Below, one piece after another: positions 12,103 to 30,110 of a stretch of DNA of 64,000 nt. The stretch's first letter is position 1, and each line of letters begins with the position of its first letter. The translations under genes and the position numbers were made by a program. The stretch is taken from assembly GCA_913056395.1 (NCBI GenBank), contig CAJXMG010000008.1, positions 1-64,000 of the forward strand, read 5' to 3'. Source of the DNA: an uncultured bacterium (GTDB taxonomy: Bacteria; Planctomycetota; UBA8108; UBA1146). The notes beneath the pieces are model-generated. The model saw only the letters and a list, made by a program, of their open reading frames with translations, was not told where the DNA came from and made no database searches.

Positions 12103-13652
12103 GAGGAAAGCGATGCCTCTGGCTGTTGCCGCTGTTGTTGGTTTGCTCTTCCCTTGCAGCCCAGAACTCTCCCGCCGAGAAAGAGGAAAAGCAGCCACCC
12201 AATATTCTCTTTTTCATCACCGATGATCTCGGGTGGCAGGACACGGCGGTCTCTCTTCACAAGGAGAGCGCTCCCTTCCAGCAACACTATCGCACCCCTC
12301 ACCTGCTCCGACTTGCCCGCGAGGGATTGGTCTTCACCAACGCCTACGCTTCATCGCCGGTGTGTACACCGACCCGTACCAGCATCATGACGGGGCGATC
12401 TCCGCAGGCGAATGGCATCACCTATTGGATCCTCCGCAAGGATCAGGACACGGGTGGCCCACGGGAGGGAACAGTCCCTCCGCAGTGGAATGTCAACGGC
12501 CTCCAGTCGGGAGATGTGACCCTGCCCGCATTGTTGCAAAAGGGTGGCTACCGGACGATTCATGCCGGAAAAGCCCATTTGGGGGCACGTGGAAGCAGTG
12601 GCGCTGATCCAAAAAATCTGGGTTTTGACGTGAACATCGCCGGCCATGCTGCCGGGGCTCCATCCGACTTCCGAGGGCGCAGGAACTTCGCCCGCGATCC
12701 GGAAAAACCGGGAGATCGCATCTGGGATGTTCCCGGTCTCGAAAAATATCACGGCAAGGATACTTACCTGACGGAAGCACTGGCACTGGAGGCTGCGACT
12801 GCAATCCATCAGGCGCACCAGGATGGCCAACGTTTCTTCCTGCACTTCTCACCCTACGCAGTTCATACACCGATCATCGCCAACGACCGTCACCTGGATC
12901 ACTACCCGGATTTGTCCAAGGTGGAGGCCGCCTATGCGACGATGATTGAATCGGTCGATGAGGCGCTGGGGGTCCTGCTCAAGACCCTCGAAGATTTGAA
13001 GATCCTCGATGAAACCGTGATCATCTTCACCAGTGACAATGGCGGGCTCTCCGCTCACACCCGTGAAAAACCGCATCACCGTCACAACCATCCGTTGAGT
13101 AGCGGCAAGGGCTCTGCGCTGGAGGGGGGCACGAGAATTCCGTTAATGGTGCGATGGCCTGGAGTGGTTGAGGCTGGGCGTCGTACCGATCTGCCCGTGA
13201 TCAGTCATGACCATTTTCCAACCTTGCTCGAGGTGGCCGGAGTCGAGGGACCGCAGGATCACATGACCCGGGTGGAGGGTTGGAATCTGTTGCCGATTTT
13301 TCGCGACGACGGTCGCGGGACGGAAACCGGAGGACTGCTGGAGGGTTGGGGCGAGCGGGTTCTCTGCTGGCACATGCCCCACTTCTGGGGCCCCAGAGGC
13401 CCGGGAATTCAGCCATTCAGCTCCATCCGTCGGGGTCCCTGGAAGATGATCTACTACTACCATCCCGAGCCAAAGCGGGTGCTCTATCACCTGGGCAAGG
13501 ATTTGGGAGAGAGTCGCGACCTTGCTGATCAGCAGGAGAAAATTCTCGAGGACCTCTCCGAAAAACTGGCGAGACATCTGCGTGAAACAGGGGCCTCACT
13601 TCCCAGCGTCAACGGACAGACCATCCCCCTGCCGGATGAACTCAAACAGTGA
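12099..13652 (+). CDS. Secreted Cys-type sulfatase
   Basis: PPNILFFITDDLGWQD; sulfatase signature VCTPTRTSIMTGR; HAGKAHLG; FTSDNGG. Confidence 0.93.
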   Translation: MRGKRCLWLLPLLLVCSSLAAQNSPAEKEEKQPPNILFFITDDLGWQDTAVSLHKESAPFQQHYRTPHLLRLAREGLVFTNAYASSPVCTPTRTSIMTGRSPQANGITYWILRKDQDTGGPREGTVPPQWNVNGLQSGDVTLPALLQKGGYRTIHAGKAHLGARGSSGADPKNLGFDVNIAGHAAGAPSDFRGRRNFARDPEKPGDRIWDVPGLEKYHGKDTYLTEALALEAATAIHQAHQDGQRFFLHFSPYAVHTPIIANDRHLDHYPDLSKVEAAYATMIESVDEALGVLLKTLEDLKILDETVIIFTSDNGGLSAHTREKPHHRHNHPLSSGKGSALEGGTRIPLMVRWPGVVEAGRRTDLPVISHDHFPTLLEVAGVEGPQDHMTRVEGWNLLPIFRDDGRGTETGGLLEGWGERVLCWHMPHFWGPRGPGIQPFSSIRRGPWKMIYYYHPEPKRVLYHLGKDLGESRDLADQQEKILEDLSEKLARHLRETGASLPSVNGQTIPLPDELKQ

Positions 13653-13715
13653 TCCTGAAACCCTGAGTTGCGGCTCGGGCTTGTTGAGGGATGTGAGTAA
13701 CTGTGAAGCGCTGCT

Positions 13716-13991
13716 CTAGTTGGCGGGCTTGATCAGACCGGCATCGAGGAGAGTACGGTAAGCACCCTTCTTGCTGATGGTCTTGAGTGCACGTGCACTG
13801 AGGCGAACCCGAATAAAGCGGTTCAGCTCGGGAACCCAGATGCGTTTGCTTTGAAGGTTGACCTTGAAGCGACGCTTGGTCAGGCCGGTGATCTTGATTC
13901 CGACGTGGCCGGAGCGCTTGGATTTACCGCGGGTCTTTTTGCGATTTCCAGAGGCAGTACGGGCTCCGGTGATCTGGCAACGGCGTGACAT
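13716..13991 (-). CDS. rpmB: 50S ribosomal protein L28
   Basis: MSRRCQITGARTASGNRK...KRRFKVNLQSKRIWV...VRLSARALKTISKKG. Confidence 0.93.
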   Translation of the reverse strand: MSRRCQITGARTASGNRKKTRGKSKRSGHVGIKITGLTKRRFKVNLQSKRIWVPELNRFIRVRLSARALKTISKKGAYRTLLDAGLIKPAN

Positions 13992-14399
13992 CGTTTCGGT
14001 CCTGTCCTAAGTCGGAGAATGGATCTCCGCGAGCAATCATTGTTCATTTCAATCGAGGACTGTGACAAACAGACCTGACCCCGGACAAGGATACGGAGAA
14101 ATCGATTCACCGATACACATCATCGACAGGGAGACCCGGAAGAGTCCTCTACCAAAGACGGAGCGTACCGATCTGCCCTGAAAGGGTCAACCAAACCCGC
14201 CCCTCTAACAGGCCCTGCCTGGAGGGCTGAAAACCGGTGAAAACCCTCAGATACAGGCGATATCGGGCCAAAAGAGCCAATTTGGGGTCATCCCGTGAAA
14301 GTTGCCAAAGTTGCCAAGAATCGTGGCTGTGCACTGGACCCGGAGGTATCCGGGCACATCATGACCCGGTGAATGATTCGACCGAATGGAGCGAAGCTG

Positions 14400-15587
14400 A
14401 TGGGAATTCTGCAAAAGCAGTGGGGTATGTGGCTTTTGGCACTGGTGATCTTGGCCAGCGGCTGCGTGGGCAGCTCGGAGTGGATCCGTGAACAGGGTGA
14501 GAGAGGTGCTTCCGTGGTGGACGGTGTGGTCGTGGAACCCTGGGGTGAAATCGATGGCGAAGAAGTTCTGCGATACACCCTCGACAACGGTTCGATGAAG
14601 GTGCGCATCATCAATTACGGAGCAACCGTCACCGAGTGCCTGGTTCCATCCGCAGCGGGGGGCGAACTGGTCGATGTAGTCCTCGGGTTCGATGATCTCG
14701 ATGGCTATCGCGAGAAGAGTCCCTACTTCGGTTGCATCGTGGGTCGTTGTGCAAACCGCATCGCCGCCGGCAAATTCGATTTGAATGACAGCAGTTACAC
14801 TCTGGCCACCAACAACGGACCTCATCACTTGCATGGCGGAAACAGGGGATTTGACAAGAGAATTTGGGAATCGAAACCGATTCAGAGTAACAGGGGGCCC
14901 GGTGTTGAACTGCGTCTGGTCAGTGAGCCCGGCGATCAGGGATACCCGGGAGAAGTACGGGCCGCGGTTCGCTACATCCTGACCGGGGCCAATCAGCTGC
15001 GTGTCGAAATGGCTGCTGAATCGAGCATGGAGACTCCGGTCAACCTCGCGCATCACTCCTACTGGAACCTTGCTGGTCACGAATCGGGAAGCACTCTCGA
15101 TCAGGAGTTGCTTCTCCGTTGTTCACGTTACACCCCCGCGCAGGACCTGATTCCGACGGGTGAAGTCGCCCCCGTTGCCGGTACTCCGCTCGATTTCACA
15201 ACCTCGAGGGCCATCGGCTCACAAATGGATCAATTGCCCAAACCGGGCGAGCCCTTTTACGCCGGAGGTTACGACCACAACTTTGTGGTCGATGGAGAAG
15301 AGGGCGCAGTTCGCGAGGTGGCGGTGGCACGATCGGGGAAGACCGGGATCGTCATGACCGTCTTCGCAGATCAGCCCGGTGTGCAGTTCTACAGCGGCAA
15401 CTTCCTCGATATCGCCGGTGGAAAAGGGGGAGCGTCTTACCCCCAATACAGCGGTTTCTGCCTGGAAAGCCAGATCTGGCCCGATGCCATCAATCGTCGG
15501 GATGTCGCAGGCTGGCCGGATGTCGTGCTCAAGCCCGGGGAACTTTACACCCACACCATGAGCCACAATTTTTCCATTGAGGAGTGA
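14400..15587 (+). CDS. galM: Aldose 1-epimerase (galactose mutarotase), lipoprotein form
   Basis: Lipobox VILASGCVG; INYGATVTECLVP; GCIVGRCANRIAAGKF; LHGGNRGFDKRIW; AHHSYWNLAGH. Confidence 0.88.
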   Translation: MGILQKQWGMWLLALVILASGCVGSSEWIREQGERGASVVDGVVVEPWGEIDGEEVLRYTLDNGSMKVRIINYGATVTECLVPSAAGGELVDVVLGFDDLDGYREKSPYFGCIVGRCANRIAAGKFDLNDSSYTLATNNGPHHLHGGNRGFDKRIWESKPIQSNRGPGVELRLVSEPGDQGYPGEVRAAVRYILTGANQLRVEMAAESSMETPVNLAHHSYWNLAGHESGSTLDQELLLRCSRYTPAQDLIPTGEVAPVAGTPLDFTTSRAIGSQMDQLPKPGEPFYAGGYDHNFVVDGEEGAVREVAVARSGKTGIVMTVFADQPGVQFYSGNFLDIAGGKGGASYPQYSGFCLESQIWPDAINRRDVAGWPDVVLKPGELYTHTMSHNFSIEE

Positions 15588-15594
15588 GGTCTCC

Positions 15595-16050
15595 ATGATC
15601 GTTATTTTTCTGACACTGATTTCGATCTTCAATGTTGGTTTCGGGCTGTGGGTGATGCTCGATCCAGTGCAGGTCATGGAGATGATGCTGACCTGGCAGA
15701 CTCCTGAAAACCCGCTTCTCCCCGACCGTGAGGCGATCCAGCCGGCGACGATCGGCGAGTTTCGCGCACTTCTTGGAGGACTCATCCTGTCTCTGGGTCT
15801 GGTGACCCTGAGATGTCTCTGGAGCCCTGCCTATGCAATATGGCTCCAACCTCTCGCATGGTGCTTCCTGGGCCTGGCTCTGGCACGCTTTTCCAGCCTG
15901 ATGCTCGATGGAATTTCCACTTACACCATCGTGGCAGCATCGATCGAGGTGGTGACCGCATGGGCGCTGGGAGTCCACGCCCAAAGGCTGCTTTCCGGCG
16001 GGGTTGAAATGGAAGAAGAGCTCGAGGAAGAAGAAGTCGAGGATTATTAA
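15595..16050 (+). CDS. Small multi-TM membrane protein (DUF4345-like) with acidic C-terminus
   Basis: Four hydrophobic segments; GGAGTGAGG upstream of ATG 15595; tail MEEELEEEEVEDY. Confidence 0.6.
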   Translation: MIVIFLTLISIFNVGFGLWVMLDPVQVMEMMLTWQTPENPLLPDREAIQPATIGEFRALLGGLILSLGLVTLRCLWSPAYAIWLQPLAWCFLGLALARFSSLMLDGISTYTIVAASIEVVTAWALGVHAQRLLSGGVEMEEELEEEEVEDY

Positions 16051-16297: not shown

Positions 16298-18226
16298 ATG
16301 ATTTTGAAGAAATCTGCCTTTTTTCCGCTCTTCCTGAGAACGGGCGGCGCATTTCTGGTGATTGCCAGTGTTGTTGCCGCAACCCACCTGATCGAGAGTT
16401 CGGTGGCATTGACCCAGGATCCACCCGCAGAAGAAGAGTTGCTCGACGATGATTTGCTCGATGATGAGTTGCTTGATGACGACCTTCTCGGTGATGACCT
16501 CCTGGAGTCAGATGAGAAGGTTGCGGAAACCGGAGAAGAAGATGCCTTTTCGTCGATTGAGGCTCACGAAAAAGTCTTCGCCAAGAGCAACTTTCCCTCC
16601 GCAGACGAGTGCGCGTTGTGCCACCCGAAGCAATACAAGGAGTGGTCCGTTTCCCAGCACGCCTACTCCCAGTTGAGCCCGCTGATGATGTCGATGCAGA
16701 ACGCCATGAATGTGGGAACGAGTACCACCAATGGTGATTTCTGCCTGCGTTGTCATGCTCCTGTGGGATCAGACATTGGCGAGCCCTTCAGCGCCTCCAA
16801 TCTCGATCGCCATCCTGCTTCGAGAGAAGGGATTACCTGTGTGACCTGCCACCGCATGAGTGCGGGATATCGCAAGGTTTCGGGAAGAATCGGAATCGAC
16901 CAGGGTGACGTCTTCGACTCTGTCAAGGGTGCCTTGGGCAATGCGGAACTCGCCCGGGTGCTGGCCGACAAAAAGCAGTTCAAGGTCAATACCGATCGTG
17001 ATGGAGTGGGACGCGCGATCCACACGGAGATTGAACCCTTCTTCGAGTTGACGACTCCTGCATTCTGCGGATCCTGCCACGAGGTGTTTGCCCCCAATGG
17101 ACTTCGGGTTCATGAGTTGATGACCGAGTATCGCAATTCGCCCGCAGCGGAAGAGGGAATCACCTGCAACGACTGTCACATGGGCAAGGAGCAGGGCGTC
17201 CCCGCTGGATATGAGTGGGGTCCCGCCGCGATTGTCGGCGGCAAGGAAACCGCGCCGCGCAAGTTGACCAATCACTTCTTCGCCGGGCCCGATTATTCCC
17301 TGATTCACGAGGGTATATTCCCGGTCAACAAGAAAGCGAATGAGTTCAAGAGCCTCCAGGAGTGGTTGCTCTTTGATGTCGACGCCGGTTGGGGAACCGA
17401 TGAGTTTGAGGACAACTGTCCCGAGGATTTCCCCTTCCCGGAATCCTGGGTTTCCATCGATGACCGATACGAAGCGCGGGAAATCATCGCTGAGCAGCAA
17501 GAGTTGCTGGGTTGGGCGAAGGAGCAGCGAATCGAAGTTCTCAAGCGAGGCTTCGGGCTCTCGGACATCCGTGTGACCAACCATGATGAGAGTGGTCTCG
17601 ATTTTGAAATTGACGTTCGCAACCTGACGAGGGGGCACAACCTGCCGACCGGCTTTGATGCGGAGCGGGTTTTCGTGGTCCAGATCGATGTGAAAAATGC
17701 TGCCGGTGAAATCGTATTCCAGTCGGGAGACCGGGATCCGAATGGTGATTTGCGGGATACTTTTTCCCTTTATGTCCGCAATGGAGAAGTGCCTCTGGAT
17801 GAGCAGCTCTTTAACCTGCAATCCAAGTTCATGTCGCGAAACATTCGCGGGGGTGACCAGGAGCAAGTGCTGACCATCAACAGTTCCGTGTCGGCCTTGC
17901 CCTTCATTCGCCCCGCTTCTCGTCCCAACAATATCTACGGACACCCCAAGGGGATGCGCAAGCATCGCCGGGGCATTGAGCCGCTGGGGCACAGGACTGC
18001 GGAATACCATGTCAGCCCGGATCTGCTGAAGGGCGAAGGGCCCTTCACCATCGATGCCCGATTCGTTTCCCAGTCGGTGCCGGTGAACCTGATTCATCAG
18101 ACGATGCACGTTGGCTTCGACTACAACATGTCTCCACGGGCTCTTGCGGAGAAGTTGGTTGAGGGCGCAGTGGTAGTCGCTGAAAAGTCAGCGGTCACCC
18201 GTGCGGCAGAGAAGGCAGGACAATGA
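16298..18226 (+). CDS. Pentaheme c-type cytochrome with N-terminal DDLL acidic repeat and C-terminal non-heme domain
   Basis: Five CXXCH motifs (CALCH, CLRCH, CVTCH, CGSCH, CNDCH); LLDDDLLDDELLDDDLLGDDLLESD; signal anchor. Confidence 0.88.
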   Translation: MILKKSAFFPLFLRTGGAFLVIASVVAATHLIESSVALTQDPPAEEELLDDDLLDDELLDDDLLGDDLLESDEKVAETGEEDAFSSIEAHEKVFAKSNFPSADECALCHPKQYKEWSVSQHAYSQLSPLMMSMQNAMNVGTSTTNGDFCLRCHAPVGSDIGEPFSASNLDRHPASREGITCVTCHRMSAGYRKVSGRIGIDQGDVFDSVKGALGNAELARVLADKKQFKVNTDRDGVGRAIHTEIEPFFELTTPAFCGSCHEVFAPNGLRVHELMTEYRNSPAAEEGITCNDCHMGKEQGVPAGYEWGPAAIVGGKETAPRKLTNHFFAGPDYSLIHEGIFPVNKKANEFKSLQEWLLFDVDAGWGTDEFEDNCPEDFPFPESWVSIDDRYEAREIIAEQQELLGWAKEQRIEVLKRGFGLSDIRVTNHDESGLDFEIDVRNLTRGHNLPTGFDAERVFVVQIDVKNAAGEIVFQSGDRDPNGDLRDTFSLYVRNGEVPLDEQLFNLQSKFMSRNIRGGDQEQVLTINSSVSALPFIRPASRPNNIYGHPKGMRKHRRGIEPLGHRTAEYHVSPDLLKGEGPFTIDARFVSQSVPVNLIHQTMHVGFDYNMSPRALAEKLVEGAVVVAEKSAVTRAAEKAGQ

Positions 18227-19605
18227 TCAGAGTCATCGCATTTACCCTGCTCCTGTTCAGTCTTGTCTGTCTTCCTGTTGGAGCGCAGGAGGGGGAGAGC
18301 CCCAGCAGACTGCCGGACTACCCGATTCCTCTGGTCGACGAATCGTTGATCAAGCCTCACCCGCCCTTGATCCAGATTGGACCGGGGCTGGTTCAGACCG
18401 GGCGCCTTGAAAGAGGTTTCGATGTTCCTGGAGGTGCGGTCTGGCGACCGTCTTTCTGGGTCTATGGAAATCTTCGTTCCGGAATCAACCTCGTTGATCC
18501 CGGAGGCAGCGGAGACCGGATCGTCGAATGGGCTCAGCGCATGGACCTTTTTGGAAACCTGCAACTGAATGGCACCGAGAGATTTCTCATCGGTCTTTCC
18601 CCCCTGCATCAGCGGGGAAGTTTCAGTCGATATGTTTTCGAGCCGGAAAATGAAGAGGGTTGGGTCGACGAAACCAACACCAGGGTTACCACATTTTTCT
18701 TCGAGGGCGAGTTGTCTGAGCTGATACCGGCTCTCGATCCGGATGGCACCCGCAAGCTGGATTACGGGTTCAGTGTGGGCCGTTGGCGCGTGGATCTACA
18801 AGACGGACTGCTCGTCAATGACATGATGGATGCGGTTGGAATCACCCGCTTTGTGGCGGTTCCCGGGACGGCGACGACGCGGATGACGTTGATCGCCGGC
18901 TGGGATGAAGTGAGCCGGGACAACAACCTGCTCTCCGAGGAGTCCCGCTACCTTTCCTTCTCTGCGGAAGCGGATACCTACAAGAGCACCATCGACCTCG
19001 ATGTGGTCCATGTGGATGCACCTGTTGCGGAGGGCGGCTCTGCCTGGTTCCTCGGCTGGGGATCATCCCAGAGACTGAAATTTGGTGGGGAGAGTTACAA
19101 CACCACTTTCCGAATCTGCAGTTCCATCGCGGATGAGGACGACAACGCAGCGGTCAGTGACGGAACCCTGTTTTTTGCTGAGGCATCAAAAACTCCCATC
19201 GGGACACCCGATATGGCATATGCCACCTTCTTCTTGGGTATTGACCAGTTTGCATCCGCTGCCCGCGGTGAGACCAATGGTGGACCTCTCGGCAAGGCTG
19301 GACTGCTCTTTGCGGCTGCCGGTTTGGGAAGATATCGACCCGCATTGGGCAACCGTGCGGATGATTCCTATGGTGGATCTGTAGGTTACCAGTGGAGCTA
19401 CGATCAGGGTGCTTCGAACCTGGTTTTTGAGGGAGGTTTCAGATCCGCTTTGGAAGGGGACGGTCCGTCCACTGGAGCAGTAGGTGGCCGTTATCAGAAA
19501 AAACTGAATGGCCGAACGATGTTCCAGATGGATACCTATGTGAAAAAAGAGGAGAGCCTCGATGTGGGACACGGCCTCCGAGCCGAAATTCTGGTTCGGT
19601 TCTAG
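18223..19605 (+). CDS. Probable outer-membrane beta-barrel protein
   Basis: Signal peptide ending VGAQ; alternating polar/aromatic strands; C-terminal ...AEILVRF (terminal Phe beta-signal); ATGA overlap with the cytochrome gene. Confidence 0.65.
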   Translation: MIRVIAFTLLLFSLVCLPVGAQEGESPSRLPDYPIPLVDESLIKPHPPLIQIGPGLVQTGRLERGFDVPGGAVWRPSFWVYGNLRSGINLVDPGGSGDRIVEWAQRMDLFGNLQLNGTERFLIGLSPLHQRGSFSRYVFEPENEEGWVDETNTRVTTFFFEGELSELIPALDPDGTRKLDYGFSVGRWRVDLQDGLLVNDMMDAVGITRFVAVPGTATTRMTLIAGWDEVSRDNNLLSEESRYLSFSAEADTYKSTIDLDVVHVDAPVAEGGSAWFLGWGSSQRLKFGGESYNTTFRICSSIADEDDNAAVSDGTLFFAEASKTPIGTPDMAYATFFLGIDQFASAARGETNGGPLGKAGLLFAAAGLGRYRPALGNRADDSYGGSVGYQWSYDQGASNLVFEGGFRSALEGDGPSTGAVGGRYQKKLNGRTMFQMDTYVKKEESLDVGHGLRAEILVRF

Positions 19606-19614
19606 GTCCTGAAG

Positions 19615-20862
19615 ATGGAAATCGTTTACGTCACCGGACTGGTCCTGATGGGATTGGCGCTGCTGGATGCCGTGGCAGGGATTTTCGTGTCTATACGGCA
19701 ATCTTTCGCCCGGTCGAAGTTTCAACAGCGTCAGGCTGAGCAACTGAGAAGCATGATGGACGAGGGGCAGCACGGGCCTTCAAAAGAGTCTGTGGGGAGC
19801 TGGAAGGGTTTCCGCAGATTCAATATTGTGAACAAGGTGCTGGAAGCGGAAGACATCTGCTCCTTTTACCTGGGGCCTGTTGATGGTGAACCGATTCGAT
19901 CCTTCGAACCGGGACAGCACATCGGTTTTCGATTTACGGTACCCGGCGATTCCAAGCCGACGATCCGCAGTTACTCCCTGAGTTCAGGTGTTCTGGAAGA
20001 CAACCTTTACCGCGTCACCATCAAGAAAGTGCCAGCACCACCCGAGACCGATTTCCCACCTGGAAAAGGCTCCAGTTACTTTCATGAGGAACTGGAGATT
20101 GGATCGGTCATCGAGGTCAGTGCCCCCAATGGCAAGTTTTATCTCGACCGGGAAGATGATCGACCTGCTGTGCTCATCGCCGGCGGGATCGGAATCACGC
20201 CCCTTCTCAGCATGCTGGAAACGATCTGCAAGGAAGGCATTGAAAGAACCTGTTATCTGTTTCATGCCGTAAGGAGTCACCGGGACCATGCTTTTGCTGA
20301 GCGATTGAATGAATTGATGCAAGTGAGAGATCATCTGCATCTCCACACTTACTTCAGCCATCCGGAAGACGGTCATGAATTGCCGGAGGGTTCGAAGACG
20401 GGATTTTTGTCCGTGGATGCCATTCAGGAAACGGTCGGTCATCTGGAGGCTCAGTTCTACATCTGTGGGCCGCCACCGATGATGCAGGCACTGGTGCCAT
20501 CCATGGAGGCGGCCGGAATCCCGAGTCGGGATATCAAAATGGAAGCGTTTGGCCCAGCCTCCATCAAAAAGAAAAAACCTCCTGAAGATTCAGGGGCTGC
20601 CACAGAGAGTGACTCTGCGACCGTGATCCGTTTTTCAAAAACGGAAGTGAAATGGGACGGAGAGTCTTCGATTCTTGAAATGGCAGAGGAGAACAGTGTG
20701 GAGATTGACAGCAGTTGCCGATCGGGCAGTTGCGGAACCTGCCAGGTGAAAGTGCTCTCCGGAAAAGTTAAATATGAAGATGAGCCGGGTTTTGACCCGG
20801 ACGAAGGAAGTTGTTTGACCTGCGTCGGAATCCCCGACGGAGACGTCGAGCTGGACGTTTGA
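19615..20862 (+). CDS. Membrane-anchored FAD/NAD(P)H oxidoreductase with C-terminal plant-type [2Fe-2S] ferredoxin domain
   Basis: N-terminal TM; FNR-type RSYSLSSG, GGIGITPLLSML, YICGPPPMM; CRSGSCGTCQVKVLSG...SCLTC. Confidence 0.9.
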   Translation: MEIVYVTGLVLMGLALLDAVAGIFVSIRQSFARSKFQQRQAEQLRSMMDEGQHGPSKESVGSWKGFRRFNIVNKVLEAEDICSFYLGPVDGEPIRSFEPGQHIGFRFTVPGDSKPTIRSYSLSSGVLEDNLYRVTIKKVPAPPETDFPPGKGSSYFHEELEIGSVIEVSAPNGKFYLDREDDRPAVLIAGGIGITPLLSMLETICKEGIERTCYLFHAVRSHRDHAFAERLNELMQVRDHLHLHTYFSHPEDGHELPEGSKTGFLSVDAIQETVGHLEAQFYICGPPPMMQALVPSMEAAGIPSRDIKMEAFGPASIKKKKPPEDSGAATESDSATVIRFSKTEVKWDGESSILEMAEENSVEIDSSCRSGSCGTCQVKVLSGKVKYEDEPGFDPDEGSCLTCVGIPDGDVELDV

Positions 20863-20914
20863 CAGATTCCCTTTGCAGACTGGCTAAGGTTGTTGCTTCG
20901 AAAAGAGGACTGGA

Positions 20915-21916
20915 ATGATTCAGAATTTGATTCCCTTGTTGTTGGTCGCAATGGTGGCTGTGGGTTTGGGCCAGGAGGCTGAAACCTCAAAGTTGCCCAC
21001 TGGTCCCGGCTTTGACCCGAAAGCCATCGTCGGTGCTTCGGAGTGCACTGAATGTCATACCCATTCAGGAGCGGTCTGGGAGCAGACTGTCCACCATGGA
21101 ACCATCACGGATATGCCCCGTACCGAGAAAGGCCGGGAGATCGCCAAGAAAATGGGGATTCGCCGGATCAAGAGTGAAAGCCTGTGCCTCGATTGCCATG
21201 CCACGAGTCATTGGGAGGATGAAAAACTGAAGCCCTCTTCGGGGGTATCTTGCGAATCTTGCCATGGCGCTGGAATGGGCTGGGTCAAACTCCATGGCGA
21301 GTTCAGCGGCAAGGAAGAGGGACAGGAAACGGCAGACGAAATTGCTCGTCGTTGGAAGGCCTCTGAAGCTGCAGGAATGTTGCGCCCAACGATGATCGCA
21401 GACATCGCGCGTAACTGCGTCAGTTGCCATGTCGTTCCCCACGAAAGCCTTGTCAATGTCGGTGGGCACCCGGCCGGATCTGACTTTGAGTTGGTCGCCT
21501 GGAGTCAGGGAAAAATGCGCCACAATAATTTTTACACCAAAGGCAAGGAAAACAAGGTCGCCTCGATTGAGCGCCAGCGTTTGCTCTACGCAGTAGGCAT
21601 CCTTGCTGAATTGGAATTGTTGCTGAAGGCCGTGGGCACTGCAGAGGAGATGGGCGACTATGCCAAAGCAAACGCACGCAGAGTCAGTGCGCTGCGCAAG
21701 AAACTGGCAACAGCTGCGAAGGCAACTCAACAGTCAGATCTCGTGAAAGCCCTTGAAGCGGTAGGATCGCTGAAGTTGAGTTTGAAAAACCAGCCAGCGA
21801 TGCTGGAGGCTGCCGCTGCCATCACGATTTCACTCGATAATCTGGCGGCAACATCCAACGGCGAAGACCTCGCAGGTCTGGATTCCATGTTGCCCAAAGC
21901 AGAAGACTACAAATAG
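20915..21916 (+). CDS. Tetraheme c-type cytochrome (cytochrome c554-like)
   Basis: Four CXXCH (CTECH, CLDCH, CESCH, CVSCH); signal peptide. Confidence 0.88.
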   Translation: MIQNLIPLLLVAMVAVGLGQEAETSKLPTGPGFDPKAIVGASECTECHTHSGAVWEQTVHHGTITDMPRTEKGREIAKKMGIRRIKSESLCLDCHATSHWEDEKLKPSSGVSCESCHGAGMGWVKLHGEFSGKEEGQETADEIARRWKASEAAGMLRPTMIADIARNCVSCHVVPHESLVNVGGHPAGSDFELVAWSQGKMRHNNFYTKGKENKVASIERQRLLYAVGILAELELLLKAVGTAEEMGDYAKANARRVSALRKKLATAAKATQQSDLVKALEAVGSLKLSLKNQPAMLEAAAAITISLDNLAATSNGEDLAGLDSMLPKAEDYK

Positions 21917-21926
21917 GAGTTGATGC

Positions 21927-23612
21927 ATGTGCCCCGTCACCGGATCTGACATGAACGATTCGGAAGAGAATTCTCGTGATTATCGTTTCAGTAATGAAGC
22001 GATCCCACGAGAAGTTCTCGATTGGGCTCGGTTCAACTCAGTTCTTTCGATTGCATGGGATGAATGTGAATCTAGGGGGAAATCCATCGAGTCGATTTTA
22101 CAGATGGATGCCAGAGTCATTGAATATCAAAAAGCGGACATCATTATTCGTAAAGGCGATTATGGCGGCTCAGTCCTGATTCCCATCGAAGGGGAAATAC
22201 GTGCCAACCTCGACGAATCTGGGGAAAAGTTTTTTTTACGCAAAAACGTCACGCGTAGACGAAGTTGGCTTTCAGCGCTGAAGCAGTTTTTTCGGTGGCA
22301 AACCCCAGTGGAGCGTATCAGCTCTGATTCCTCAAATAGAAACTTATATTCTGAAAAATCCCGCGTTCCTCGTTTAGACATCAATATCGAAGAATACATG
22401 ACAAAATATCTTACGCGTAGGATCGGACTCGGGGAAATTTGTGGAGAAATTGCTGCCTTACGCAGGAGCCCAAGGACTGCCTCCGTCTTTGCAGAAACCG
22501 ATTGCAAGGTGTTGGAAATTAGGTGGCAGGGAATCCGCGAGATACTCAAAAACTCAAAAGAGCTCAGTTACTACCTTGAAGACCTGATAGGGGATAGGCG
22601 CCATCAGATTTTCAGCGGAATGAAAGTCCTGACCAATTTACCCGAATCGGTGCAGAGAACACTATCCGCGAGAAGTATTTTTGAGAGGTGGGGTTCGGAT
22701 CATTGGAATCGACACTTCCGAAAAATCATGCAGTCCAAATCTTCCATGATCGACCGCGAAGCAGTCGTCCTTCAACAAGGTCATCACATGGATGGCTTGT
22801 ATGTTCTTCTCAGTGGATTTGCACGAGTCACAAATAAAGAGGGCAGTGAAGAGAAGACTGTCGGGTATCTTCGTCCAGGTGACGTCTATGGTCTCAAAGA
22901 ACTGCTTAAAGATTCCAAGTCAAGTGTCAGCTCACCGGCTTTGAGAAGTATTCGTGCGGTAGGCGCCATCGATCTCGTGGTAATTCCCAGCAATGATTTT
23001 GTCGAATACGTGTTGCCGGAGTTGAAGAATCTGGACATCGATCAGTTGGGATCAGAGAAGGGCCTGATTTCCACGGAGCTGCTCAACTTCTTTCTCGATC
23101 GCAGGATCGTCAACGGTAACCAGACGATGGTGATCGATCTGAACCGCTGCACTGACTGTGATGATTGTGTCAAAGCTTGTGCTGTAACACACGATGGGAA
23201 TCCCCGTTTTATTCGTGAGGGATACCGTCATGCAAAGTTGATGGTGGCAACAGCCTGTATGCACTGTATTGATCCTGTCTGCTTGATCGGCTGTCCCACT
23301 GGAGCAATTCACAGGGAGCATACGACCGGAAATGTGGTGATTACTCGAAGTGAGTGCATCGGTTGTGCTTCTTGCGTTGAATCCTGCCCTTATGACAATA
23401 TTCGAACCGTCGAAGTTCAGGATGCAAACGGTGAACCTGTAATCGATCTTGAGACGGGGAAGCCTGTTCTTAAAGCAACCAAATGTGATCTTTGCATTGA
23501 TCAGCCTTCTGGGCCTGCGTGTGTCAACGCCTGTCCACATGATGCATTACATCGCATCAATTTTTCAGACGCTTCAGGAGTTTCCAGCATCGTTGAGAGG
23601 ATTACGGGATGA
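21927..23612 (+). CDS. Cyclic-nucleotide-binding-domain (two copies) / four-cluster [4Fe-4S] ferredoxin fusion (DmsB/NrfC-like)
   Basis: Two CNB-like regions (IIIRKGDYGGSVLIPIEGEI..., VVLQQGHHMDGLYVLLSGFARV...); CTDCDDCVKAC, CMHCIDPVCLIGCP, CIGCASCVESCP, CDLCIDQPSGPACVNACP. Confidence 0.85.
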   Translation: MCPVTGSDMNDSEENSRDYRFSNEAIPREVLDWARFNSVLSIAWDECESRGKSIESILQMDARVIEYQKADIIIRKGDYGGSVLIPIEGEIRANLDESGEKFFLRKNVTRRRSWLSALKQFFRWQTPVERISSDSSNRNLYSEKSRVPRLDINIEEYMTKYLTRRIGLGEICGEIAALRRSPRTASVFAETDCKVLEIRWQGIREILKNSKELSYYLEDLIGDRRHQIFSGMKVLTNLPESVQRTLSARSIFERWGSDHWNRHFRKIMQSKSSMIDREAVVLQQGHHMDGLYVLLSGFARVTNKEGSEEKTVGYLRPGDVYGLKELLKDSKSSVSSPALRSIRAVGAIDLVVIPSNDFVEYVLPELKNLDIDQLGSEKGLISTELLNFFLDRRIVNGNQTMVIDLNRCTDCDDCVKACAVTHDGNPRFIREGYRHAKLMVATACMHCIDPVCLIGCPTGAIHREHTTGNVVITRSECIGCASCVESCPYDNIRTVEVQDANGEPVIDLETGKPVLKATKCDLCIDQPSGPACVNACPHDALHRINFSDASGVSSIVERITG

Positions 23613-24436
23613 AAATCCGCCCTCCTCATTCGGGTGCTCTGTTATTGATCCTGATCGGCATCGTTGTCAGTTTGTATTTTCTGGAGCAAGCAGACGCAAC
23701 GCTTGCCAATCCTGCTGTTACCAGCGGCTGGATCTTATTGGGAAGCTTTGTGCTCCTCTGTCTTTATGGGGCACGCAAAAAAGTTCCCTTTTTGCCGATT
23801 GGTAAAACGGCGACATGGTTACAGCTGCATCTGGGTTTTGGGGTGATCAGCACCTGGTTATTTCTGGAGCATGTGGGTTACAGATTTCCGACAGGACTGT
23901 TTGAGACCCACCTTTATGTGCTTTATTCATTGTTGTTGATCTCCGGATTTCTCGGCTGGTTGGTCATGAGGGCATTGCCTGAAACACTTCGAGCGGATGG
24001 CAGAGAAGTGAACCCCTTGCGCATACCTGACGAGCTGGCAGGAATGGTGAAGAAAAGTGACGACTGCATCGCCGGGCTCGAACCTGGAGAGTTGAATCCT
24101 GAGATACTCAAAGGGTACTTTGAGGTGGTTCGACCTTATTTGTGTTCAGGCTGCGGGGTACTGCCATCACGAATTCACCCGGAATTCGGAGTGCCCCAAA
24201 CTTTGATCCAGCGATTGCAGGATTACGAATCTCCGACAGTGCTCTTTTCTTCAGAGCCATTTCTTCCTGTACACAAGATTGTTAGGGAAAAAGCTGTTCT
24301 GGACCTTCATCAGGTACGCCAAAGGTGGATGCGCGGCTGGCTTTTTGTCCACGTGCCGGTGACCGGAGTGATGGTCCTGATGATCATTTTGCATGTCATT
24401 CTTGTGACAGCGTTCAAAGCCGGGGGGGCGCAATGA
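23609..24436 (+). CDS. Integral membrane b-type cytochrome-like subunit
   Basis: Hydrophobic helices with paired His (LQLHLGFGVISTWLFLEHVGY; WLFVHVPVTGVMVLMIILHVILV); ATGA overlaps on both sides. Confidence 0.65.
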   Translation: MKIRPPHSGALLLILIGIVVSLYFLEQADATLANPAVTSGWILLGSFVLLCLYGARKKVPFLPIGKTATWLQLHLGFGVISTWLFLEHVGYRFPTGLFETHLYVLYSLLLISGFLGWLVMRALPETLRADGREVNPLRIPDELAGMVKKSDDCIAGLEPGELNPEILKGYFEVVRPYLCSGCGVLPSRIHPEFGVPQTLIQRLQDYESPTVLFSSEPFLPVHKIVREKAVLDLHQVRQRWMRGWLFVHVPVTGVMVLMIILHVILVTAFKAGGAQ

Positions 24437-26568
24437 ATATAAAGCCTCGTGGTGCCTTTGATTCACGAACAACGCGATATTTGCGTCCTGATCGTCCCTA
24501 CATTTGTGGCAACAGTTCCCAGCCTTGCTCAAGCGGTCCGACAGGATCCGGAGTCTGCCCCCATGGAGAGGCGGGCTGCTTTCCGCGCATGAGCGAAGGC
24601 TACCTTCGAAAGAGGGTCCAGCGCAGTCTTTTTCTCCTTTTTCTGGGCGGGTTGATGGTCACCCTTGCCGCTGGAGGAGATGAGAAGGGCCCCTTTGATC
24701 AGGAGTTGATCTCGCCGGGCCCCTTGTCCCATTTTCATTCCCAGTTTGATTGTAGTGATTGTCACTCCGCTGACTTGAATTCATGGCAAGGGCTTTTGTC
24801 CAGTGTTTGGGATGGAAGTGGAGACACCTTTGCCAGCGATGGTTGTCTCAAGTGCCATGATCAGGGCCCTCATGCGATGAGTGCCCATGGTGTTTCGCCG
24901 GAAGCTTTGCGTGAGAGAAGTGGTCTGCAGGGTGTCGCTCCCTTCCACGATCAAACAGAGTGTGCAGTTTGTCATACTGAACATGGTCATGGCAGTCATG
25001 ATGTTCAGCTCTCTGACTCCCGTTGCCAGACGTGTCACCAGCAGCAATTCGAAAGTTTTGTGTCAGGCCATCCTCCTTTTTCGGAAGACTTCGGAAATAA
25101 ACCGAGAACACTTTCTTTCAGTCACTCTGATCATGCATTGCGTCACTTCAAAACCATGCCCGAGTATGCTCCCCAATCCTGTTCGGGGTGCCACCAGTTG
25201 AATGAGACAACCGGAGCCATGACGGTCCTTCCCTATGAAGAGTCCTGCGGCCAGTGTCATACCGACGACATCATCAAGAGCGAGGCCGTGAAGTTTTTCG
25301 CACTGCCTATGATTTTTGGTCTGGAGGAGATGAAGGAAGAGGGGATGGGTGTCGGAGATTGGCCGTACATCGATATTCTCGATCTCACACCCTGGACTCG
25401 GCGCTGGTATCAAAGCAGTGAAATGGATTCTGAATTTTCCGAATTGATGAAACTGTCAGAGCTTGAAGGTGATGAACCTGGAAATCCGGCCAAAGTGCGG
25501 GAGGTTCAGGAGTTTGCCATGTCGATCAAGCGATCATTCATGAAAGACATGATCAGTGATTTGCGGTCATGGATAGGAAGACTGTTGCCGGGGGAGTACA
25601 GCGAATGGACCAGTGACGAACTGGCCCAGCTCTCAGGCCAATTCCCGATCGCCTTGCTGGTCAAAATGCAGGAGCGCTGGTTCCCAAATCTGGACGAAGA
25701 ACTGAACCGTTTCGACAGTGGCATGTTGGTTGAACCTCAGGCAAGTGAAGAGGGGATGACAGAAGAAAACACCGCTGTTGCTGCTGCTGTTGCCGAAGAG
25801 GATGATCTCCTCGCTGGCGGCGAAGATGATCTGTTGCTGGAAGATGAAGGCGATCTACTTGCGGATGAAGATGACCTGCTCATGGATGAAGAGGATCTGC
25901 TGGCGGAAGATGAGGACCTTCTTGCTGGATCCGAAGAAGATCTCTTGCTGGAAGAAGACGATCTTCTCTCAGGTGATTTGGATCAGGAGAAGGACGCAGA
26001 TAAAGAGGAGACAATTGTTCAGGAGCACTCCCTCGAAGAAACCAGTGTTGGTCGTGATTGGGCCAATCTCGGTGGTTGGTACGAGGAGGCAGGGGTGGTT
26101 TGGTACAAGCCTGTCCAACACGCTGACCCTTTCCTGAAAGCATGGATCGAAGCGGAAATCCGTCACGGAGCGGGTGAAGAAACCTCCGCAGAAATTCTGT
26201 CACTTCTGTTGGCAGATAACGCTCCCGGTAAATGCAGCAAGTGCCATTCCGGGGTTTCTGCTGAGAAGGGTGCCTTGAACTGGACCCCCGCTGCCAGGGA
26301 AGAAGCGGTTCGATTTTCGAAATTCAGTCATGCGGATCATGTGTTCAGCGACGCAGATCTTCAATGCACGAGCTGTCATCAGCCACGGGAGTCTCAATCC
26401 TCCAGTGGTCATGACTGGTTTCCTGTAAAAATGGAATCATGCACAGATTGCCACGGTCAGGAAGTCGCAGATGACTGTACTCTTTGTCATCAGTATCACG
26501 CTTCCCCTGGAATCAGAAAGCTCAAGTCTGCGAGTATCAATATTTTCCGCATGTCAGAAGAAAACTGA
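24433..26568 (+). CDS. Decaheme c-type cytochrome with N-terminal Cys motif, single TM and internal DDLL repeat
   Basis: Ten CXXCH (CSDCH, CLKCH, CAVCH, CQTCH, CSGCH, CGQCH, CSKCH, CTSCH, CTDCH, CTLCH); EEDDLLAGGEDDLLLEDEGDLLADEDDLL... Confidence 0.88.
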   Translation: MNIKPRGAFDSRTTRYLRPDRPYICGNSSQPCSSGPTGSGVCPHGEAGCFPRMSEGYLRKRVQRSLFLLFLGGLMVTLAAGGDEKGPFDQELISPGPLSHFHSQFDCSDCHSADLNSWQGLLSSVWDGSGDTFASDGCLKCHDQGPHAMSAHGVSPEALRERSGLQGVAPFHDQTECAVCHTEHGHGSHDVQLSDSRCQTCHQQQFESFVSGHPPFSEDFGNKPRTLSFSHSDHALRHFKTMPEYAPQSCSGCHQLNETTGAMTVLPYEESCGQCHTDDIIKSEAVKFFALPMIFGLEEMKEEGMGVGDWPYIDILDLTPWTRRWYQSSEMDSEFSELMKLSELEGDEPGNPAKVREVQEFAMSIKRSFMKDMISDLRSWIGRLLPGEYSEWTSDELAQLSGQFPIALLVKMQERWFPNLDEELNRFDSGMLVEPQASEEGMTEENTAVAAAVAEEDDLLAGGEDDLLLEDEGDLLADEDDLLMDEEDLLAEDEDLLAGSEEDLLLEEDDLLSGDLDQEKDADKEETIVQEHSLEETSVGRDWANLGGWYEEAGVVWYKPVQHADPFLKAWIEAEIRHGAGEETSAEILSLLLADNAPGKCSKCHSGVSAEKGALNWTPAAREEAVRFSKFSHADHVFSDADLQCTSCHQPRESQSSSGHDWFPVKMESCTDCHGQEVADDCTLCHQYHASPGIRKLKSASINIFRMSEEN

Positions 26569-26569
26569 T

Positions 26570-27634
26570 TCAGGAAGCGGACAGCAGCCTATTTTGTTCA
26601 GTTCTGGCTCGGCGAATTCTCGAATTGAGTAAGGGGCGGCGCTGACGAATAAATTCAGTTAGACAGATGTCTAGCGAAGCGAAGAATCCGTTTTCCAATT
26701 CGTCCAATAAATCTCCCAGCAACAAAGCATCTTCAAGGTCCGAATCCACTCCTGAATATAGATCTGGCAATGTGGGGTGAGCTGCTTTGCCAATCAACAC
26801 CACATTGTCTTTGTGGAAGAAGCGGGGAAGTCTCCGGTCAGAACATTTGGATATTTCAACCGCATTGATGGCTTCCTCACTAAAGATCGGACGCAGCTCT
26901 TTGGGCCAATTGCGACTCCACTTGAAGATCAGTTTTCGGCATTCTTCGGAGGAGCTGTTGGAGTGGATGAGTAGCCCTTTGGCGTCCACTTGCAACCGCC
27001 AAGAGACACTTTCGGAATCGACAGGATAGATGATCAGTTCACCGAAAGTTTGTGGAATCTTGTATGAGAGAACTCGCTCGTTAAAGATGGCAGCGGTATT
27101 ACCAGTTGTTGAAGTCCCGCTTATTTGAATAGTATGCGACAATGAGAGTGCAGGCCCTGGTATGTGCATTTCTCTGATTACAGATTGAACACCGTCTGCA
27201 CCGACGAAGAGGTCTGCATTTGATCGTGTACCATTTTTAAAATGGGCAGATTCGATTTTATATCCCAAATACGGTTCAAAATGACTGAACTGAGCACCAA
27301 ACCGGTATCGGTCTTCTCCAACACACTTTTGAATTTCTTGATGTAGTCGCAATGCATCGGCAGTGAAAAGAAAGTTTCCAGATTCCGTCCGAAATTGATC
27401 TGAAACGGAGTAAGCCCTTCCCCCTCTCAGAGGGGTGACCCAATTGCGGAGCTTCAGGCCCAATGAAGATAGAGATTCCAAAGAGACCGAATTGAAAAGG
27501 TATCCGCTGCTACAGGAATCGAGTCCTGTTTCAGGAATGCAGATTTCTACTTCGTGTCTGGATTGAAGTAAGCGCAGTGCGAGCGCCATACCAGACAGGC
27601 AGGAGCCCAATATAGTGATTTTCATACTCTTCAA
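26570..27634 (-). CDS. FAD-dependent monooxygenase/oxidoreductase (PHBH-like fold)
   Basis: MKITILGSCLSGMALALRLLQSRHEVEI; FVGADGVQSVIREM; NVVLIGKAAHPTLPDLYSGVDSDLEDALLLGDLL. Confidence 0.82.
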   Translation of the reverse strand: MKSMKITILGSCLSGMALALRLLQSRHEVEICIPETGLDSCSSGYLFNSVSLESLSSLGLKLRNWVTPLRGGRAYSVSDQFRTESGNFLFTADALRLHQEIQKCVGEDRYRFGAQFSHFEPYLGYKIESAHFKNGTRSNADLFVGADGVQSVIREMHIPGPALSLSHTIQISGTSTTGNTAAIFNERVLSYKIPQTFGELIIYPVDSESVSWRLQVDAKGLLIHSNSSSEECRKLIFKWSRNWPKELRPIFSEEAINAVEISKCSDRRLPRFFHKDNVVLIGKAAHPTLPDLYSGVDSDLEDALLLGDLLDELENGFFASLDICLTEFIRQRRPLLNSRIRRARTEQNRLLSAS

Positions 27635-27795
27635 ACGCCTCTGAATAAGAGATTGGGCCGCTCGCAGTTAGCATCGCTTTGAAATAGTCGGTCCTGATAT
27701 TAATAGCAGTAAAGTCGCAATAGTCACACCGAGTAATGGAGATAGGCAAAATTGACACAAATGACAGTTTAGTCATAAAAATATCGCTCACTCCT

Positions 27796-29031
27796 TTAGT
27801 AGACTCTGATCGAATCCCAGACAGTTTCGATTCTCATCAGTGCCTCATTCAGAATCTCCTGTGAAGTTGCAACGGAGAGGCGCAAGTGTCCCTCAGCACC
27901 CGGGCCAAACCATCTCGCAGCACCCGGAACGACACTGACTCGTGCTTCTTTCAAAATCTTTTCCGCCAGAGTTTCCATCTCTGTATTCGGAATTTGGATT
28001 TTGGGAAACAGCAGGAAGGTGCCCTCCGGAACGGGGCATTGGATCCCTTCCAGAGCTGAGAGTCGCTGGGCTGCAGAGGGGATTACCTGTCGCAAATGGT
28101 CGACAAAGGCTCTGCGCCATTTGCCCCCGTGTACCAGAGCCGCCTCAGCAGCCACCTGGGAAAGGGCAGTGGCGCCACCACTGGTATCGAGGATCCCTGA
28201 TTCTTCAGTGATTTTTCTGAAGAGATGATCATTACAAGTGTGCAGGTATCCGACCCGCAACCCTGACAAGCCGTCACTTTTTGAGAAGCCTGAAATTGAC
28301 ACCGTTCTCGCAGCGATTTCTGCAGAAAGAGAAGCCAGCGAGGTCATGGGTACATCCCCAAGGATGATTTCGGACCAGACTTCATCACTGACCAGCACCA
28401 AATCGTGTTTCTCTGCGAGATGGGCCATGGCTTGGAGTTCTTCAGTTCTCAAAACCCTGCCTGTGGGGTTGTGGGGATTACAAACCAGCAGGGCTTTTGT
28501 CTTGGCAGTGATCATCGACTCGAGCTGCTGAATGTCGAAAGCCCCCCCGATGGGTGAAACGGGACAGCGATGAACCTTTGCTCCGGCCAGCTCTGCACAG
28601 TGGGGAAGCAGAAAATCAACGGGGTCAAAAGTCAGGGCTTCGTCGCCAGGGTTCAAAATGGCGCGACAGGCAACCTTGAGTGCGGAAGCTGCTCCATCGA
28701 TGACGAGAACCTTGTCCGCGCTGGCGGGTATCCCCTTGCTGCACAAGCCTTCGGCGATGGCTTCCCGAAAACTTTCGAACCCCTGTGGAGGGCAGTAACC
28801 CAGATATCCCTGTTGGATGTGACGTCCTACGGCATCGGCAACCTCAGGGCAAATCGGATAATCCATTTCACCGGCAGTCAGAGGAATCACACCCTCTTCA
28901 ACCGTGGCCCAGCGCAGATTGAAAGCAGTTCTTCTGAGCGCTTTTTCATCGATCCGGTCATGACTGAACAATTCAGGGGTAGGGGTAATCTTCATCGGCG
29001 GGGCTTCTTTCTGATCTTTGTTCAGGCACAA
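27796..29031 (-). CDS. PLP-dependent aminotransferase class I/II
   Basis: LLVCNPHNPTGRVL; LVSDEVWSEI; SISGFSKSDGLSGLRVGYL. Confidence 0.9.
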   Translation of the reverse strand: MCLNKDQKEAPPMKITPTPELFSHDRIDEKALRRTAFNLRWATVEEGVIPLTAGEMDYPICPEVADAVGRHIQQGYLGYCPPQGFESFREAIAEGLCSKGIPASADKVLVIDGAASALKVACRAILNPGDEALTFDPVDFLLPHCAELAGAKVHRCPVSPIGGAFDIQQLESMITAKTKALLVCNPHNPTGRVLRTEELQAMAHLAEKHDLVLVSDEVWSEIILGDVPMTSLASLSAEIAARTVSISGFSKSDGLSGLRVGYLHTCNDHLFRKITEESGILDTSGGATALSQVAAEAALVHGGKWRRAFVDHLRQVIPSAAQRLSALEGIQCPVPEGTFLLFPKIQIPNTEMETLAEKILKEARVSVVPGAARWFGPGAEGHLRLSVATSQEILNEALMRIETVWDSIRVY

Positions 29032-30110
29032 ACGGGGACTCGGTCAATGGAGTGTGATTCAAGACCCAGAAATTGTCTCTGCAGGCTTCGACCCTCTTCC
29101 AGTCGTCGCTGAAGAACCGGAATCCGTTTGTTGGCAAAATCCGTCAGGCGTCGATCGAGACTGTCGACGGAAGTGGAGTCCCAGTCACTCAGGGTATCCC
29201 CAAGATTCAGGCCATCCTCGAGTGCGGACCCGACTCCCTGACTGGTGAAGGTCAACAGGGGATGAGCGGCGTCTCCCACCAGTAGTACATTCCCCTTGTG
29301 AAAACGGGAGGGAAGATCCATGTCAGTGGTTCTCCAAAGATGACAGTGGCGCAGATCCCCGGATCCGACGACCTTTCTGACCAATGTTGGCCATCTCTGC
29401 AGTTCTGACTTCAGCCAATCGGATCTTGCTTCGGAATCCAGCAATGTCTGGGGCCATCGACGGAGGTCCCACTGGAAGTACCAGATCACCTTCTGGTCTG
29501 CGGTTGGAACCATCCCCATGGCAGCCCCCTCGCGACCATTCATGAACTTTTTGAAGGTGCCTTGCAACTCTGCTGGGATTTTTTCGAATTGAGTCATGCC
29601 GACGATCTCAACAGATTTGACGGAGCTCAAAGTCGATTCGGGGAAACAATCGCGGCGAATTTTCGACCGGACACCATCCGCACCAATGAAGAGATCCGCT
29701 TCGATGATTCTTCCATTCCTCAGGGCAGCAGCACGGGTAGATCCGTTTTTTTCCACAATGAAGTGGTCAAACTCAGACCCGAAGTGAATCGTTCCCGGCT
29801 GGAGCTGATTTCGCATCTGGCTAACCAGACGTTGCCTCTCAATTCCCTGGCAATCCTGTAGGGGCTGTCGGGAATGGAAGTTGTGGTTCAGATCGTGGAC
29901 GTGGTACTGCCCGATTGCGTGGGTATGGCCTGACACCGAAACGCCCAATTCCCGAAGATTCTGGCAAGTGTTGGCATCGAAGATCATTCCGAATCCACCA
30001 GAAGCAGCGGAGGATCTTCGCTCCAGTATTGAAACGCGGTGTCCGCTTTTCTGCAGGCCCAGGGCGCACGCCATCCCGGCAATACTGCCCCCTATGATAA
30101 CGATCCTCAT
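29022..30110 (-). CDS. FAD-dependent monooxygenase, paralogue of 26570-27634
   Basis: MRIVIIGGSIAGMACALGLQKSGHRVSILERR; FIGADGVRSKIRRD; NVLLVGDAAHPLLTFTSQGVGSALEDGLNLGDTL. Confidence 0.9.
   Translation of the reverse strand: MRIVIIGGSIAGMACALGLQKSGHRVSILERRSSAASGGFGMIFDANTCQNLRELGVSVSGHTHAIGQYHVHDLNHNFHSRQPLQDCQGIERQRLVSQMRNQLQPGTIHFGSEFDHFIVEKNGSTRAAALRNGRIIEADLFIGADGVRSKIRRDCFPESTLSSVKSVEIVGMTQFEKIPAELQGTFKKFMNGREGAAMGMVPTADQKVIWYFQWDLRRWPQTLLDSEARSDWLKSELQRWPTLVRKVVGSGDLRHCHLWRTTDMDLPSRFHKGNVLLVGDAAHPLLTFTSQGVGSALEDGLNLGDTLSDWDSTSVDSLDRRLTDFANKRIPVLQRRLEEGRSLQRQFLGLESHSIDRVPVCA

Follow-up and report, generated by a model that had tools for sequence, protein, structure and literature searches.

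A planctomycete PCC4 subgroup II operon with a conserved cyclic-nucleotide cassette and a candidate NAD(P)H-linked electron path

PCC4 was proposed in 2017 as a candidate system for extracellular electron transfer (He, Barco, Emerson and Roden 2017, Front Microbiol 8:1584, PMC5566968). It consists of a porin, three periplasmic cytochromes (4-, 5- and 10-heme), a conserved inner-membrane protein (IMP) and other redox proteins, and the IMP has five transmembrane (TM) helices, an SGXXG motif and two WX3HX13H motifs. In subgroup II, which marine planctomycetes are among those to carry, a pfam13247 Fe-S gene is added upstream of the IMP gene, a redox gene lies upstream of the tetraheme gene and the extracellular multiheme cytochrome (MHC) is absent. 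PCC4 has been found in Zetaproteobacteria and Hyphomicrobium and tied to iron or manganese oxidation, and inward electron flow to quinone was modelled (PMC5566968). Here we describe an operon of seven co-directional genes, A to G, at 16298-26568 on the + strand of a 64,000-nt stretch of planctomycete DNA (contig CAJXMG010000008.1, positions 1 to 64,000; the window). The operon is almost certainly a PCC4 cluster of subgroup II. We show that PCC4 has a wide distribution over phyla, its carriers including marine planctomycetes that have an aerobic oxidase, and we offer, as an alternative to the published direction, a flow driven by NAD(P)H.

The operon as a member of PCC4

The open reading frames (ORFs) of all seven genes were confirmed. 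A (16298..18226), D (20915..21916) and G (24433..26568) have 5, 4 and 10 CXXCH motifs, respectively, and B, C, E and F have none, giving 19 in total. These heme numbers are kept in 24 of 26 homologues of A, all 36 of D and 32 of 35 of G, the three other G homologues being cut by contig ends. E (21927..23612), which matches PF13247 (E-value 5.5e-12), is immediately upstream of F (23609..24436), and C (19615..20862) is immediately upstream of D. F corresponds to the IMP, with five hydrophobic segments, SGXXG and both WX3HX13H motifs, and B (18223..19605) models as a barrel with porin fold matches. No gene for an extracellular multiheme lipoprotein is present within 16298-26568. Because every published feature open to test was found, we place the operon in subgroup II with near certainty, by agreement of features and not by sequence comparison with published members such as those of Oceanospirillum beijerinckii and Zetaproteobacteria. 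Therefore the original prediction, which was made from the DNA letters alone and took the system to be undescribed, was wrong on this point, and that view is rejected. Its genes, coordinates, strand, 4-nt overlaps (A/B, E/F and F/G), gaps of 9 (B/C), 52 (C/D) and 10 nt (D/E) and 19 CXXCH motifs were all reproduced, and its domain content for A, C, D, E and G was matched by Pfam and NCBIfam: C554-type for A and D, FAD_binding/NAD_binding_1/Fer2 for C, cNMP_binding and Fer4 for E, and cytochrome c7/c3-type for G. In the same searches B had no match and F none that was significant. The terms tried found no mention of the cluster in the Nitrospina gracilis genome paper. The novelty beyond the PCC4 description is modest: a conserved cassette in the first cyclic-nucleotide-binding (CNB) domain of E, the NAD(P)H-linked C, the barrel model of B, the homology of A to a solved cytochrome c552, and reuse of the inner-membrane genes. 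The cyclic-nucleotide site and the reusable inner-membrane module are the parts of most experimental interest.

The operon shares a common logic with MtrCAB, PioAB and OmbB-OmaB-OmcB, namely an inner-membrane feeder, periplasmic multiheme carriers and an outer-membrane barrel, but its feeder is unlike theirs, being composed of an NAD(P)H/FAD oxidoreductase, a CNB-ferredoxin and a diheme-b-type protein. The likeness to MtrCAB seen in the original prediction holds for this general logic and not for the outer parts, since B is OprD/AlgE-like and an extracellular cytochrome is lacking. MtrB is a barrel of 26 strands. MtrCAB membership was rejected because 17 members of the B family gave no MtrB match at E-value <=1 and the best folds are smaller porins. 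The suggested resemblance in logic to NrfBCD/DmsBC does not extend to the membrane subunit: 26 members of the F family gave no NrfD/DmsC Pfam match and have four conserved His ligands, so that F is not NrfD but of diheme-b type. The operon also resembles ferric reductase (FRE)/NOX enzymes, in which an NAD(P)H-FAD dehydrogenase is combined with a diheme-b membrane domain with HX13H pairs. It is not a single-protein FRE/NOX, because here the HX13H pairs are in F and the dehydrogenase is a separate gene, C; the two are linked by the CNB-ferredoxin E, and electrons would continue to c hemes.

Conservation of the cluster and reuse of its inner-membrane genes

We fetched 55 loci with E as the query and compared all their ORFs with the seven window proteins. 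The order A-B-C-D-E-F-G on one strand was found in 17 of them, 14 complete and three truncated where a contig ends. These 17 loci belong to six groups: Planctomycetota, Latescibacterota, SAR324, Nitrospinota, Poribacteria and Proteobacteria. The order D-E-F-G-A-B-C is seen in one locus each of Thiotrichaceae and Verrucomicrobiales. In the Gimesia-type loci L026, L034 and L036, A-B is divergent from D-E-F-G and C is absent from the sequenced stretch examined; in L033, A-B is divergent from C-D-E-F-G. Among 17 genomes whose locus is without A-B, A is encoded elsewhere in four (those of L012, L022, L024 and L035). Co-occurrence was then counted in a sample of 246 Planctomycetota genomes, with hand-set thresholds for a strong F (E-value <=1e-60) and a strong B (E-value <=1e-70). 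A strong F is present in 24 genomes, a strong B in 34 and both in 23, against about 3.3 expected (product calculated by hand) if they were independent. The seven-gene arrangement is thus conserved far beyond chance. The original prediction had proposed a trans-envelope electron-transfer system, named synteny as a check on it and counted homologues that do not occur together as a refutation; synteny, co-occurrence (23 of the 24 strong-F genomes) and the barrel now support it as a conserved system. In the tree of E, Planctomycetota do not form one clade, so it is likely that E was acquired more than once, and several long branches make single joins unsafe. In five genomes of the phylum sample (G018, G031, G041, G050 and G054), contigs that encode weaker F-like proteins also encode other CNB-ferredoxin-like proteins, which suggests that membrane pairs of this kind make up a larger family in Planctomycetota.

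Nine Verrucomicrobia loci (L017, L019, L027, L028, L035, L037, L038, L046 and L048), several of them cut by contig ends, have no A-B nearby. Here a putative large porin of about 750-800 aa comes after E-F-G, which is joined by C where the locus reaches that far. The porin was called from synteny, its size, the absence of TM helices and an aromatic C terminus; a profile search with it against PDB sequences gave nothing meaningful. In eight of the nine, an LVIVD-repeat cytochrome of up to 1324 aa comes next, with 10 hemes where it is complete. The joining of the inner-membrane genes to another outer half points to C-E-F-G as an inner-membrane feeder able to serve different outer halves. The context is also what would be expected if C-E-F-G feeds outer-membrane cytochromes, in line with the outward chain proposed below. 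Verrucomicrobia porin-MHC clusters with a large porin, an 8-heme periplasmic partner and an extracellular MHC have been described in Opitutaceae (He et al. 2017 mSphere, PMC5615132). A comparable outer half lies downstream of C-E-F-G in some of the related loci. The published clusters may overlap with loci such as L027, L028 and L035, from which they differ in the 8-heme partner. L017 is labelled Akkermansia muciniphila yet bears an Opitutaceae-type cluster, so the label of this metagenome-assembled genome (MAG) is doubtful.

The predicted electron path and the cyclic-nucleotide site

From the gene content, synteny, co-occurrence, motifs and barrel model described here, we infer a reductive chain whose NAD(P)H end is given by the families of C, its membrane step by F, and its outer end by B and the feeder context. 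NAD(P)H would reduce the FAD and then the [2Fe-2S] cluster of C, if these cofactors are loaded, and C would reduce four [4Fe-4S] clusters of E at the cytoplasmic face. E would then reduce the hemes of F, electrons would cross the inner membrane to the periplasmic hemes of G and D, and from there they would reach A. Finally, A and B at the outer membrane would reduce an extracellular or small soluble acceptor. As an account of the whole operon, this chain is evenly balanced in our judgement between right and wrong. The direction from NAD(P)H to the periplasm is somewhat more likely than not, and the chances that the acceptor is reduced at or outside the outer membrane are about equal either way.

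Outward flow is favoured because C falls among NAD(P)H-oxidising reductases and F has HX13H pairs like those of ferric reductases and NOX. C has an N-terminal membrane anchor and a C-terminal plant-type [2Fe-2S] domain (PF00970, PF00175 and PF00111), and its relatives are the flavoproteins flavohemoprotein, PaaE, BenC, Hcr and NqrF. In F, the motifs are W70xxxH74-x13-H88, S112-G-x-x-G116 and W244xxxH248-x13-H262. The two HX13H pairs are invariant across 26 aligned homologues, from whose alignment the five hydrophobic segments were read, and both WX3HX13H motifs are present in all 47 homologues long enough to score, which bears out the b-type-like membrane protein of the original prediction. 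PF01794, the membrane domain of ferric reductase and NOX, is matched weakly by 4 of 26 F members (best 2e-4), and a profile search of F against PDB sequences gave nothing meaningful. By analogy, C and F resemble a split FRE/NOX. D is a c554-like cytochrome (PF13435) with a profile match to 1bvb (E-value 1.1e-13). G has an N-terminal 4-Cys unit (24505..24585, +) with invariant C25, C32, C42 and C49, one TM helix and a 10-heme periplasmic part. Its start is taken as ATG 24433, and the longest ORF, which opens earlier at GTG 24325, was not used. The window's family has one copy of the 4-Cys unit and nearly all other lineages have two, and basic residues preceding the TM helix would put the unit on the cytoplasmic side.

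E is a cytoplasmic protein with two CNB domains (PF00027, E-value 2.7e-27) and a 16-Cys ferredoxin part for four [4Fe-4S] clusters (23118..23561, +); its profile matches are HycB3 and the regulatory domains of PKA/PKG. The first CNB domain (CNB1) has the motif FGEIAALxRxPRTATV, much like the cassette in regulatory subunits of PKA. This phosphate-binding cassette, GEIAALRRSPRTASV (22443..22487, +), has the canonical Glu (E174) and Arg (R183) and is a predicted binding site, and the second CNB domain is degenerate. Among 49 homologues of E the Glu is found in all and the Arg in 46, of which 45 were counted by a script pattern and one (L049) by reading; the Arg is lost in L021, L029 and L030. The window genome encodes three class III cyclase domains. 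The conserved cassette together with these cyclase domains supports gating, in which a cyclic nucleotide on CNB1 would probably switch or tune the flow; that such gating occurs is a real possibility, somewhat short of an even chance. An envelope electron chain under the direct allosteric control of a cyclic nucleotide would, to our knowledge, be new. A literature search for CNB-ferredoxin fusions found nothing relevant. The main text of PMC5566968, which differs from the reading given here also in modelling inward flow to quinone, does not mention CNB domains: 'cyclic', 'cNMP' and 'pfam00027' do not occur in it, Supplementary Figure 4 being outside this check. In two gammaproteobacterial homologues (L039 and L041) an FHA domain is inserted within the CNB1 region (E-values 3e-18 and 5e-17), which hints at a second signalling input.

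In the outer half, A has a signal peptide, an acidic (LLDD)n spacer and a C-terminal non-heme region, and on reading has no lipobox. Its homologue of solved structure is the Thermochromatium tepidum pentaheme cytochrome c552 (PDB 5ze8), which A matches by profile (E-value 3.7e-17) and by fold (E-value 3.3e-8, on a low-confidence A model with pLDDT 60.5). A poor model is as expected, since A was modelled without hemes. A literature search for papers on the T. tepidum pentaheme cytochrome found none. In L008, L009 and L011 a second pentaheme gene lies just upstream of A and is 66-73% identical to the window A. The AF2 model of B (pLDDT 76.8, pTM 0.73) has best Foldseek matches to MOMP, OprD-family and AlgE porins (E-value about 1e-10), in line with the outer-membrane barrel foreseen for the 18223 product. 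It has about 18 main strands when two short neighbouring strands are counted as one (range 18 to 20), a C-terminal Phe and a conserved predicted loop, R-x4-GGPLG. No Pfam match at E-value <=1 was found among 17 B members, no NCBIfam family covers B, and a profile search against PDB sequences gave nothing meaningful.

The spacer of A (16430..16513, +) is an acidic dileucine repeat in which TRF detects a 15-nt period at 16436-16497, and G has a (D/E)DLL acidic repeat loop (25774..25964, +) between hemes 6 and 7. Acidic repeats tend to be present in A and G together (Fisher p 8e-4, with no correction for kinship), and the sharing of 5-mers between them is marginal (permutation p 0.04). We treat this linkage as a lead, not as evidence. 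The acidic hydrophobic motif is often the same in both proteins of a genome, for example DDLL in the window's genus, DDML in L007 and DDFG in L042.

Alternative explanations and genomic surroundings

Several points weigh against the outward, gated chain. In the model of He et al. (PMC5566968) electrons run the other way, to quinone, which the diheme F could bind. For the contact between C and E, co-conservation is the only ground. CNB1 could be a structural relic, given the loss of its Arg in three homologues. With about 18 strands, the modelled B may be too narrow for a multiheme cytochrome, which argues against full insertion and makes a cytochrome-filled conduit, and with it contact with the cell exterior, only putative. 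No experiments on PCC4 and no biochemistry of any member were found in the literature. On the fullest reading, PCC4 would be a trans-envelope reductase driven by NAD(P)H and gated by a second messenger, with cAMP or cGMP acting allosterically at CNB1 of E, and C-E-F-G would be a portable feeder that has been combined with two or more unrelated outer halves (A-B, or the putative large porin with the LVIVD 10-heme cytochrome); this is unlikely to be right in all its parts.

The strongest of the alternatives is that A is a periplasmic or outer-membrane-attached terminal reductase of a small molecule, that B is a selective porin which admits this molecule, and that electrons stay in the cell. B models like the small-solute channels named above, A is better conserved between phyla than any other protein of the operon (37-50% identity outside its own family), as a catalytic unit should be, and in four genomes A is located away from the locus. 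On the other hand, A has further conserved His residues at 90, 121, 242, 326, 337 and 447, and all five of its hemes could be bis-His ligated, which would suit electron transfer over catalysis; furthermore, the same feeder is joined to a putative large porin and a cytochrome in Verrucomicrobia. We regard this explanation as rather unlikely.

Less probable still is the published model, in which the conduit takes electrons from an extracellular donor such as Fe(II) or Mn(II) inward through the periplasmic cytochromes to F and the quinone pool, and in which C might generate NAD(P)H by reverse flow. It agrees with the association of PCC4 with iron or manganese oxidation in Zetaproteobacteria and Hyphomicrobium (PMC5566968), and the cytochrome b-like HX13H pairs of F could serve a quinone site. 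It is less easily reconciled with the families of C, which oxidise NAD(P)H, or with a modelled barrel that is narrow for a cytochrome conduit. In addition, the window genome has one COX1 and no RuBisCO match, which mildly favours an aerobic heterotroph over an autotrophic iron oxidiser; in relatives from the genus there are RuBisCO-family matches, but these are weak (about 44 to 62 bits) and may reflect RuBisCO-like proteins. Chance adjacency of seven unrelated redox genes, for which nothing was found in favour, is refuted by the order kept in six groups and by genome-level co-occurrence and deserves practically no credence.

The window genome (G000) is 2.77 Mb in size and 95% complete, the window being its contig C8, and its nearest relatives are marine Planctomycetota MAGs such as TMED53 and MCMED-G47. 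The flanks of the operon look unrelated to it. Upstream (12003-16050) are sulfatase-like, aldose-epimerase-like and DUF4345 genes, of which only DUF4345 was domain-checked and the others were assigned by reading; downstream (26570-30110) are two FAD monooxygenase-like genes, one of them domain-checked, and an aminotransferase-like gene, the rest again assigned by reading. Elsewhere in the genome, two adjacent genes encode further Cytochrome_C554-family proteins (G000 C2:164393-166159).

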